Below are positions 35,876 to 39,069 of a DNA stretch of 64,000 bases, one piece after another; position 1 is the stretch's first letter, and every line of letters begins with the position of its first letter. The position numbers and the translations under genes are program-made. The notes under the pieces are model-generated. The model worked only from the letters and a program-made list of their open reading frames with translations. It searched no databases and was not told the DNA's origin. The stretch comes from Undibacterium sp. YM2 (GTDB lineage Bacteria; Pseudomonadota; Gammaproteobacteria; Burkholderiales; Burkholderiaceae_D), in contig NZ_AP018441.1 of NCBI RefSeq assembly GCF_009937975.1, forward strand, positions 1,674,001-1,738,000. The letters are read 5' to 3'.

Positions 35876-37189
35876 TCAATCCAGTTTGGTTTGCACACTA
35901 CTGATGCCAACTTCAGCGGTACCAGATGCCAGTCTGACTTGTATCAGTGATTGTGGTTTAAGTTCAGACGTCTTGCGCAAGGCCTTGCCTTTGTGATCGC
36001 TGAGGATGGCATAGCCGCGCTCCAGCGTGCGTTGTGGGTTAAGCAACTCCAGTTGGCTGCGCAGTGCCGACAACTGCTGTTGCTGGCCTTCACGGACGTG
36101 TCTGGCTGCTTGCTGCAGGCGTCTTTGCATGTCGGTCAGCAGCAGCCTGGGTTTGCTCAGGTCTGGCTTGTGTGTTTGCCAGCTCAGGGTCAGTTGCGTC
36201 AGCTCATGTCTGGCCTGGCGCACCGGCAAGCTGGCGCTGTGGCTGAGGTTGCTGGCCAGGTTTGCCAGTTGCAAGCGTCTGGCGGCAATGGCAGAGCTTG
36301 GGCTGAGCAGGCGGCGGCTTTGCCAGTCCAGGGTCTGGGCCTGGTCATCCAGTTGTCTGTGCATGCAGCGGCTGAGTATTTGCGCCTGGCGCTGTAATAA
36401 CTGTAGCCAGGCATCCCTGGGCGTGGCTGCCAGCTCGGCGGCGGCGGTAGGTGTGGCAGCACGCAAGTCGGCTGCAAAATCGGCGATGGTAAAGTCAGTT
36501 TCATGGCCTATGCCGGCGATCACAGGCATGGGGCAATTGACGATGGTGCGGGCGACCACTTCTTCATTAAAGGCCCACAGGTCTTCCATACTGCCACCGC
36601 CACGGCAAACCAGCAAGACATCGCATTCTTCGCGGGCAGCGGCAGAGGCTATCGCCTGGGCGATCTTCATGCCTGCGCCTTCGCCTTGTACTGGAGTAGG
36701 GTAGAGGATGACGTTGACGTGTGGCGCTCGCCTGTGCAGCGCGGTCAGGATGTCACGCAGGGCGGCAGCCTGCGGGCTAGTGACTATACCTATGGTTTTG
36801 ACAAAGGTGGGCAGGGGGCGCTTGCGTTCAACGTCAAACAAGCCTTCCTGCGTCAGTTGCGCTTTCAGGCGCAAGAATGCTTCATATAAATTGCCAACGC
36901 CGGCGCGGCGTATGGCCTCTACACTCAACTGATAATCGCCGCGTGGCGCGTACAGGGTGACCAGGGCGCGTACTTCTACCTTGTCGCCTTCTCTGGGCTG
37001 GAAGTCTGCATATTGCGCGCGGCCACGGAACATCACGGCCCTGACCTGGGCACCACTGTCTTTTAAAGTGAAATACCAATGTCCAGACGCGGCGCGGGTA
37101 AAGTTGGAAATCTCGCCAGAAACCCAGGTCAATGGCAGGTTGCGTTCCAAAAGCTGAGCAACGGCCTGATTCAGCGCCGTAACTGTCAT
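35876..37189 (-). CDS. xseA: Exodeoxyribonuclease VII large subunit
   Basis: 437 residues from the ATG at 37189; a GTG codon lies directly before it, and an in-frame stop 42 bases upstream limits other choices. The N-terminal OB fold has [38 protein letters not shown]. The catalytic region shows [31 protein letters not shown], the conserved GIGHE-D-T-D-AD motif. A long helical region ends with [14 protein letters not shown]. It forms nuclease VII with XseB, which is not in the window. It starts right at the edge of the repeat-rich intergenic region. Confidence 0.95.
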
Positions 37190-37290
37190 CACGGAGGGCG
37201 TGTTTACTGGGGGGCGTAAGGCGATTCAGGATTCATAAAGCTTGGCGGCTGAAATTCTGTCCACAGAAGCGTGGATTGGTCATCATGTCA

Positions 37291-38285
37291 TTTTGCCTCT
37301 GAGATGTCAAAAGAAATGAAAGTTTACTATCTAAGTCTTTGATTTTTAATAAAAATCAATCTGCAAAAGAATGAGGCAAAATGAAAATTCCCTTTCAAAT
37401 CAAGGACATTGCGCTGCATCAAGCCGCTTGTGCACAAACTTATCCACAGAAATTGTGGTTAAGCTGTTGAAAACTTTATTTTCCAGCCAGCTCTGGTGGT
37501 TTGCCTAAAATATTTGCACTGCGGTAATCTTTTTTAAAATCAAGTACTTAGTGCCTTTCCCTGCGCTTTTACACAAGCTTGTCCACACATTTTGTGCAGA
37601 ATAAGCTGCAATCTACAGAGAAAATGATGATAAAGACAATATTTTAAACCGGCCTGTGAATAATTGGAGTTTGCCACTTTTTAGGCGCGAATAAAAGAAT
37701 GATTAAAATCAGTGACTTAGTTACATACCCTATACTTTTTCACATAGTTGTCCACATATTTTGTGCAAAAGCCTGGATTAGTGCAAATCTGGCTTATAAA
37801 TATTTGTCTTAAAATCAATTTTTCTGTGGAAAAAGTATTGTGTCGCAGAAAAACTGCCGTTTGCCTGTTTTTCTGGCAGTGGGGATTAGTGATTAAAAAT
37901 CAGTGACTTGTGGCATTTATTTACGGTAATGCACAATCTTGTCCACATATTTTGTGCAAAACGCAGAGCATTTTCCTAGTCACATTTTTATGCTGAAAAT
38001 TTGTGCAAAAATGCGTCAGATTGGATGTTTGCCTAAAATATTGGCAGTACAATAATTTTCTTTTAAATCAGTCACTTGTCAGTATGTGCAAGACTTTTGC
38101 ACATACTTGTCCACAAATTATGTGTAGAAAAGACGGGGCTAAAATGGAAAAAATGCTGTTTTATCCACAAAATCGCTGTGCCTAAATCTTTGGCACAGTC
38201 AAAAAAATGAAATAAATCATGGGCTTAGGCGGAATCGATGTACTTATCCACAAGCTTGCGCACAGATTTTGTGTAAAACAGTGAA
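37291..38285. repeat. Array of imperfect ~150-190 bp direct repeats
   Basis: The 1.27-kb gap between xseA and exbB is non-coding. Five units begin near 37499, 37670, 37859, 38027 and 38175, with a partial one before them. A typical unit has four parts in order. First, a short hairpin of the form TTTGCCTAAAATATTGGCA. Second, an AAAATCAGTGACTT-like block. Third, often a second small hairpin. Fourth, a conserved block CTTGTCCACATATTTTGTGC. Spacing is irregular and units diverge, so this is an old, maintained array rather than a fresh tandem duplication. A longer inverted repeat (TTTTGCCTC at about 37291 with GAGGCAAAA at about 37372) borders it on the left. Confidence 0.85.
37428..38252. promoter_or_regulatory. 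Cluster of DnaA-box-like 9-mers
   Basis: Exact matches to the DnaA box TTATNCACA occur at 37440-37448, 38161-38169 and 38244-38252 (plus strand) and at 37655-37663 (minus strand). TTGTCCACA, one mismatch away, occurs at 37579, 37748, 37939 and 38107, one per repeat. After the variant boxes, about five bases later, comes an inverted TGTGCAAAA-like sequence (TTTTGCACA on the other strand), so boxes occur as convergent pairs. The flanks are AT-rich. Whether DnaA binds here is inference from the motif. Confidence 0.7.
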
Positions 38286-38463
38286 TATTTTCAATCGCAA
38301 TACAATCGTAATAATTTGCTGTGATGACGGCAAACTTTATGCTTTTTGTTGAAAATTATGCTTTGAAACATTTTGTGCCTAGTTTTTTGCTTTGCACTCT
38401 TGCCCGCAGGCAGACAACGCGCTACATTGCGGGCTTGGATTTAGGAACCTTCAAGGAGTTAAT

Positions 38464-39069
38464 TTGTTCGATATCATTCGCGCCGCGGGCTGGCCAATTT
38501 ATTTTTTATTGATTGCCTCAGTGATCGCGCTGGCATTAATCATAGAACGCAGCCTTTCTTTGCGTCGTAGCCGTATCTTGCCGCCCACTTTGCTGGACGA
38601 AGTTATCCGTGTTTATCAGGCTGGCAAGGTCAAGCCCGAAGTCATAGAACAACTGGCTGGCAATTCTCCTTTAGGTAAAGTTCTGGCAGCAGGTTTGCGC
38701 AATGTCAATGCGCCACGTGAAGTCATGAAAGAATCGATAGAAGAAGCGGGCAGTGCTGTTGCTCATGAACTTGAGCGTTTTCTGACTACTTTGGGCACGA
38801 TTGCTTCTCTGGCACCTTTGATGGGCCTGTTTGGTACAGTCGTCGGTATGATAGAAATTTTCGGTTCGCAAAACGCGACCGGTGCCAATCCTGCGCAACT
38901 GGCGCATGGTATTTCTGTGGCCTTGTATAACACTGGCTTTGGTTTGATGATCGCCATGCCTGCGATGGTGTTCTGGCGTCATTTCCGCGCGCTTGTTGAT
39001 AGCATCGTCGTCGATATGGAACAACAGGCAATCAAGTTTGTTGATGTCGTCCACAGCTCCAGGAAGTAG
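38464..39069 (+). CDS. exbB: ExbB/TolQ-family proton channel protein
   Basis: 201 residues from a TTG at 38464, which has AAGGAG five bases upstream; the longer frame from 38392 lacks such a site and reads poorly. Three membrane segments: residues 10-30 (WPIYFLLIASVIALALIIE), about 110-135 and 155-180. Conserved family stretches are LGTIASLAPLMGLFGTVVGMIEIF and GISVALYNTGFGLMIAMPAMVFW. With ExbD it forms the proton-driven motor that energises TonB, for example for the receptor at 20.7-23.2 kb. TolQ is the alternative name, but the pairing with a short ExbD and no tolAB favours ExbB. Confidence 0.9.
   Translation: MFDIIRAAGWPIYFLLIASVIALALIIERSLSLRRSRILPPTLLDEVIRVYQAGKVKPEVIEQLAGNSPLGKVLAAGLRNVNAPREVMKESIEEAGSAVAHELERFLTTLGTIASLAPLMGLFGTVVGMIEIFGSQNATGANPAQLAHGISVALYNTGFGLMIAMPAMVFWRHFRALVDSIVVDMEQQAIKFVDVVHSSRK

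Follow-up and report, generated by a model that had tools for sequence, protein, structure and literature searches.

A predicted tandem, multi-core DnaA-reactivating sequence between xseA and an exbB-type gene in Undibacterium

Undibacterium sp. YM2 carries a dense cluster of DnaA boxes in the non-coding gap between two divergently oriented genes, and the question is what such a cluster does there. An earlier note on this DNA had read it as a replication origin, a sink for DnaA or a regulatory locus, and had named datA as a likeness. The DnaA-reactivating sequences (DARS) were not among the loci named in that note; in E. coli, DARS1 and DARS2 regenerate ATP-DnaA from the inactive ADP form. We analysed the window, i.e. 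the whole stretch of 64,000 nucleotides that contains the gap, together with the genomes of relatives, and conclude from the sequence that the gap is probably a tandem, multi-core, IHF-dependent DARS. The anatomy of the sequence, its fixed spacing, its conservation at the locus and the genes for IhfA and IhfB are direct observations.

Anatomy of the array

The gap is bounded on the left by xseA (35876..37192, minus strand), encoding the large subunit of exodeoxyribonuclease VII (TIGR00237, 479 bits, cut-off 180), and on the right by an ExbB/TolQ-family gene (38392..39069, plus strand), assigned at family level only, below every equivalog cut-off. The two genes thus face away from the gap, in agreement with the earlier note. 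The true start of the latter gene may be near 38466, and the choice of start sets the size of the gap, about 1.2 or 1.27 kb. The gap is AT-rich (GC 0.36) and carries a direct-repeat family.

Six tandem cores were found at 37,428-38,278, each with three DnaA boxes, two direct (a and b) and one inverted (c). On the plus strand a core consists of box a (TTNTNCACA-like) and box b (mostly TTGTCCACA), separated by 3 bp, and of the inverted box c (TGTGNANAA) after a further 5 bp; these are the boxes III, II and I of a DARS, respectively. Core 1 (37428..37462) has box a at 37428, box b at 37440 (TTATCCACA) and box c at 37454, with one mismatch to the core pattern. No mismatch is present in core 2 (37567..37601; boxes at 37567 and 37579, the latter TTGTCCACA, and inverted at 37593), core 3 (37736..37770; 37736, 37748, inverted 37762), core 4 (37927..37961; 37927, 37939, inverted 37953) or core 5 (38095..38129; 38095, 38107, inverted 38121), and two are found in core 6 (38244..38278; 38244 TTATCCACA, 38256 TTGCGCACA, inverted 38270). 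From one box b to the next the distances are 139, 169, 191, 168 and 149 bp, so that the unit size of 150-190 bp given before was roughly right, the measured range being 139-191 bp. The other elements then described, namely the repeats, the TTRTCCACA boxes, the facing TGTGCAAAA boxes, a TTTGCC..GGCA element and an AAATCAGTGACTT block, were all found in place, as were the four exact boxes in about 0.8 kb (three TTATCCACA and one TTATTCACA within 0.81 kb).

With up to two mismatches, the gap has six full cores on the plus strand and none on the minus strand, whereas 1000 dinucleotide shuffles of the gap average 0.001 cores and never exceed one; in the whole genome the same pattern has seven matches, of which six are the array. 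The looser motif TTWTNCACA occurs 15 times in the window, 12 of these at 37440-38278, compared with 6.7 +/- 2.3 (largest 13) in shuffled windows. Three other identities were ruled out: an RNA element, as an Rfam search of the gap gave no match up to E 0.1; a dispersed repeat, as the array was its own sole match in the genome in a similarity search; and a virus, as the module pattern had no match in viral contigs.

In four of the six cores (2-5) an exact match to the consensus for integration host factor (IHF) lies 41 bp before box b. The consensus, WATCAANNNNTTR, was taken from the accessible text of PMC4585315, with R accepted at the sixth place as our own relaxation, and in this form it is matched by the AAAATCAGTGACTT block of the earlier note. 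The predicted sites, all on the plus strand, are AATCAAGTACTTA (37538..37550) for core 2, AATCAGTGACTTA (37707..37719) for core 3, AATCAGTGACTTG (37898..37910) for core 4 and AATCAGTCACTTG (38066..38078) for core 5. Cores 1 and 6 have no exact consensus at -41. Core 6 is preceded by a degenerate IHF-like site, AATCATGGGCTTA (38215..38227, plus strand), in which one position fails; a full consensus precedes the last core in some gaps of the genus. Upstream of core 1 a candidate site lies on the minus strand (37332..37344), 96 bp before the first box, and a minus-strand consensus 96-98 bp before the first box is found in 17 of 20 listed loci of the genus. Many cores in the 35 gaps of the genus described below, and likewise in other genera, are without an IHF consensus at -41. 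In a profile of 125 units the fixed places of the IHF site carry 1.09 and 1.24 of information per position and its N places 0.47; the high scores of the boxes in this profile are partly built in, because the units were picked by the core pattern. IhfA and IhfB are encoded in the genome, both scoring above their NCBIfam cut-offs.

The TTTGCC..GGCA element, located 76 bp before box b, is a 15-mer with terminal G and C around an AT-rich centre. Such G-N13-C 15-mers are found on the plus strand before core 2 (37503..37517), core 4 (37863..37877), core 5 (38031..38045) and core 6 (38180..38194), and a 14-bp GCC..GGC variant before core 3 (37673..37686). It resembles a Fis site and may be one; the relaxed Fis pattern (GNNYRNNNNNYRNNC) matches at the conserved -76 position in 33 of the 125 units. 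The Fis assignment is disfavoured by PMC4245941, according to whose accessible text the conservation of Fis and of the DARS2 core is confined to relatives of E. coli among the gammaproteobacteria. Both labels, IHF and Fis, are consensus-based predictions.

Box geometry in E. coli and in relatives

DnaA boxes were listed in four control stretches of E. coli K-12 (DARS1, DARS2, datA and oriC). DARS1 has boxes at +813107, -813121 and -813133, and DARS2 at +2969135, -2969149 and -2969161. In both, box I on the plus strand is followed 14 bp on by box II and 12 bp further by box III, the latter two on the minus strand. The reverse complements, TAATACACA tgg TTATCCACA ggaat AGTGGATAA for DARS1 and TTCTTCACA act CTATCCACA gaaaa GGTGAATAA for DARS2, are collinear with the units of the window. 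The core pattern matches DARS1 with one mismatch and DARS2 with two, whereas in E. coli neither the datA nor the oriC stretch has a match to it up to four mismatches, and three oriC stretches of the genus have none up to three.

As described in the available parts of PMC5742627, DARS1 and DARS2 share the spacing between their boxes, with box I opposite to II and III, and head-to-head boxes I and II are characteristic of DARS and essential according to those of PMC10380432. All six cores of the window have three boxes with box I opposed to II and III, at the spacing of DARS1 and DARS2. Boxes a and b alone are no DARS signature, since E. coli DnaA binds double boxes 3 bp apart in general (PMC11317965, accessible text).

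DARS1, upstream of uvrB, is identical to the array in box order, orientation and 14/12-bp steps, and takes a similar place on its chromosome arm (0.66). Unlike the array, with its six cores of which four have an IHF consensus at -41, it consists of one core and has no IHF consensus within about 2 kb. DARS2, upstream of mutH, likewise shares the core geometry and has one core, but its accessory layout differs, because the only IHF consensus found in its stretch lies about 435 bp from the core, compared with 41 bp here; the array repeats the IHF-like site, the Fis-like site and the core as a compact unit. DARS2 requires both IHF and Fis, whose direction and distance matter: moving the IHF site away from the core by 5 bp hurts more than by 10 bp, and both shifts towards the core hurt (PMC4245941, in the text at hand). 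By analogy, such sensitivity fits the rigid 41 bp of the array.

A similarity search with the array matched 31 of 60 genomes (own included), i.e. 30 of the 36 of the genus and one of the 24 outside it, where the sole match was 27 bp. Of the 36 genus genomes (that of YM2 included) one, G028, has no exbB match and was left out; in three others (G007, G018 and G025) xseA lies outside the locus, so that at most 1500 bp before exbB were taken, in G007 a piece of 104 bp. The conservation check proposed in the earlier note came out strongly. Cores (up to three mismatches) number 2-9 in 34 of the 35 gaps, the remaining gap being cut by a contig end, and up to nine units are found in one 1.9-kb gap. 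When boxes were sought in the 35 gaps without the core pattern, direct pairs peaked at 12 bp (117, next-best 7), head-to-head boxes at 26 bp (103) and 14 bp (93), and IHF-to-box distances at 29 and 41 bp (71 each, next 7). The next-best count for head-to-head boxes, 23, is a 1-bp offset caused by palindromic TTGTGCACA boxes.

We also scanned 84,980 genomes, regardless of context, with a pattern of the IHF site, CACA (box III) and box b (II), leaving out box c (I). The scan yielded 83 stretches. Of the 80 that gave readable loci, 57 contain both xseA and exbB, 12 contain one of the two (69 in total) and 11 contain neither. Box I was absent from the pattern, yet TGTG stands exactly at +14 in 106 of the 115 matches, and 113 of them agree with box c in at least six of seven positions. 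Going by the titles of their records, most loci belong to the Oxalobacteraceae (Undibacterium, Janthinobacterium, Massilia, Duganella, Telluria, Herminiimonas, Glaciimonas, Sapientia and one 'Herbaspirillum'). They are not 80 independent cases, because several lie on one contig (L105, L114) and some come from the same species as the genus genomes. In other genera the xseA–exbB gap holds 1-8 cores in the loci read, as counted on one strand over the whole 8-kb locus in 34 of the 80 loci, hand-picked as non-Undibacterium. A relaxed core pattern matched all 195 sampled genomes of the GTDB family, from 44 genera and with sites outside the gap included, compared with three matches in total for a reversed control pattern. 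Within the genus, helical phasing of the units is strong: for 132 pitches R reaches 0.77 at best, at 10.4 bp, and with unique values none of 20000 random sets was as good, related species sharing pitches. In other genera the phasing is weak, with R about 0.43 for 160 pitches and 0.21 when unique values are taken, and it is therefore not a main argument.

The module lies between xseA and exbB in 87 of 87 matches at loci with both genes, and on the exbB strand in 96 of 96 at loci with exbB. The latter would suit a control region through which DnaA and IHF couple envelope genes (exbB/exbD-type, lpxK, kdsB, adk) to the cell cycle, the more so as DnaA regulates promoters in E. coli (PMC11317965, as far as available). 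Up to nine units in a 1.9-kb gap would nevertheless be unusual for a promoter, and in genome G184 the cores are split, two of them beside xseA and one beside exbB at a distance of about 20 kb, which makes this explanation very unlikely. A sink only, in which initiation is delayed because some 18 boxes titrate DnaA and leave its nucleotide unchanged, draws on the many good boxes within 0.85 kb and on PMC12371093, which in its accessible text makes the case for titration of DnaA by the E. coli chromosome, with DARS1, DARS2 and datA a large fraction of that power. It needs neither the fixed head-to-head geometry nor IHF at a fixed distance, however, both of which recur across genera, and in the stretches of this genome that were counted the boxes crowd near oriC, from which the array is 2.15 Mb away; we consider it unlikely.

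A module of IHF site and DARS core was also seen in gammaproteobacteria (L167 and L179 from Alkalimonas, L168 from Pseudidiomarina, L174 from Glaciecola), about 0.4-1 kb upstream of dapE, identified by family match in L179 and L168 and by resemblance in the other two. In one genus genome (G015) a short array match lies on a small second contig, away from exbB (C2:137626 of 171 kb, L097), possibly in a plasmid replication region. On contigs C1 and C2 of that genome there are also fourteen ORF copies in all, seven encoding 273 aa and seven 290 aa, whose match to a DnaA domain is weak; we presume them to be IstB-type transposition helpers.

Chromosomal position, oriC and dif

The earlier note had placed dnaA outside the window, correctly, as it is found at the contig start, 1.7 Mb away. 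Its use of this absence as an argument against an origin fails: it carries no weight here, because in the five near-complete genomes of the genus dnaA and oriC are themselves 83-442 kb apart. The evidence on the origin comes from elsewhere. An oriC with DnaA-trio was found at 6.042 Mb (C1:6,042,182-6,042,799), as two modules of TTATCCACA, DnaA-trio and AT-rich DNA, 2.15 Mb (2154 kb) from the array and opposite dif, which lies at 2.818 Mb. This oriC pattern, drawn from three of its 14 test genomes (G000, G014 and G016), was found at a single locus in every one of the 14; dif was found in eight of ten genomes, with oriC roughly opposite in those eight. Two or three trio-bearing modules make up oriC in the loci viewed (own C1:6,042,000-6,042,900, i.e. 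L050:2000-2900; L093, L095). The GC-skew check that had been proposed for an origin showed no sign change at the array within the window, the skew being positive on both sides; the sampled sign changes are at 2.5-2.8 Mb and, noisily, near 6.0-6.1 Mb. An origin, main or secondary, would account for an AT-rich gap with a cluster of DnaA boxes, yet with no skew change, no DnaA-trio in the gap and a trio-bearing oriC at another locus it retains next to no probability. As main origin the array is contradicted by the skew and by the positions of oriC and dif. What stands of the original reading is a regulatory locus for DnaA.

Relative to the arm from oriC to dif, the array lies at 0.661 in its own genome and at 0.47-0.70 in nine genomes of two genera (G005 being the outlier at 0.47), compared with 0.66 for DARS1, 0.41 for DARS2 and 0.20 for datA, the E. 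coli values being based on the generally known position of dif. For G014, in which no dif was found with up to three mismatches, half the circle was used, and G184 was placed by its xseA-side cores. Conserved gene order may explain part of this shared mid- to distal-arm position.

The likeness to datA suggested in the earlier note fits less well than one to DARS1 and DARS2. An IHF site, predicted in the case of the array, and DnaA boxes at constrained spacing are indeed common to datA and the array (PMC10380432, accessible text), and on this basis IHF and DnaA might promote hydrolysis of DnaA-bound ATP here. The E. coli datA stretch, however, is without the DARS core, and datA lies near oriC; a datA-like element so far out on the arm is, in our view, highly improbable. 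The biochemical effect of datA is opposite to that of a DARS.

In the region C1:5,980,001-6,100,000, TTRTCCACA/TTATNCACA boxes number 5-16 per 20 kb, against 0-2 per 20 kb in the other counted stretches; some of them lie inside genes, and TTATCCACA likewise crowds near oriC in G014 and G016. This crowding at 5.98-6.10 Mb is similar to the origin-proximal box enrichment described for E. coli in the accessible part of PMC12371093, and is a feature separate from the array. A single DARS-type core lies between hemE and priA (own C1:5,996,168, i.e. L048:16168; also L138, L208, L209 and L211), at a distance from oriC of 46 kb in YM2 and 55 kb in G184; the two genes were identified by family search in L048 (priA also in L138) and by tblastn in the rest. 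Judging from its sequence, this core is a possible second, early-replicating DARS.

A proposed role in recharging DnaA

As a DARS, the array could work as follows. In each of the six units box I stands head-to-head with box II, with box III behind II, and ADP-DnaA would fill these boxes as it does in E. coli (PMC4245941, PMC8682772 and PMC10380432, in their accessible text). IHF, by the same analogy, would bend the DNA at its site 41 bp from box II, bringing the DnaA molecules on boxes I and II into contact via their AAA+ domains; ADP would be released, and the freed DnaA could then rebind ATP. The third conserved element may bind Fis. Through its six cores the array would give a multiplied or a cooperative output, these being the simplest options for the role of multiple cores, and the array must presumably also hold some DnaA, with titration as a side effect. 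Placed about 0.66 along the arm that runs from oriC to dif, the array would be copied late in a round, so that reactivation capacity would rise before the next initiation. A more tentative extension, which we find possible rather than probable, is that a bacterial family has expanded the single DARS core into a multi-core device, in which up to nine IHF-bent units form a joint switch that would start to recharge DnaA sharply once about two thirds of the arm have been replicated, with the single hemE–priA core near oriC acting early.

Finding a DARS core in a betaproteobacterium is in itself no novelty, because wider occurrence has been described: the accessible text of PMC10380432 mentions DARS-like sequences in many proteobacteria, and that of PMC5742627 a DARS2 spacing conserved in beta- or gamma-species proximal to E. 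coli. In contrast to the latter, PMC4245941, in the part available, limits the DARS2 core to those gammaproteobacteria that are related to E. coli. Among the matches listed in a search of the open literature by title or abstract start, with most subscription papers outside the search, neither a tandem DARS array with an IHF site per core nor the xseA–exbB locus was found.

In the literature found, DARS biology consists of two E. coli loci with one core each. Here the form is tandem, with a predicted IHF site at fixed distance, at the same gene pair across many genera and with 2-9 cores within one genus. The array thereby offers a comparative and experimental handle on DnaA recharging and initiation timing outside the enterobacteria, and the results with the relaxed core pattern in the family suggest a simple way of finding DARS sites. 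The natural variation in core number gives a handle on whether core number tunes the timing of initiation; if the multi-core switch were true, evolution would be able to set this timing through the number of units.
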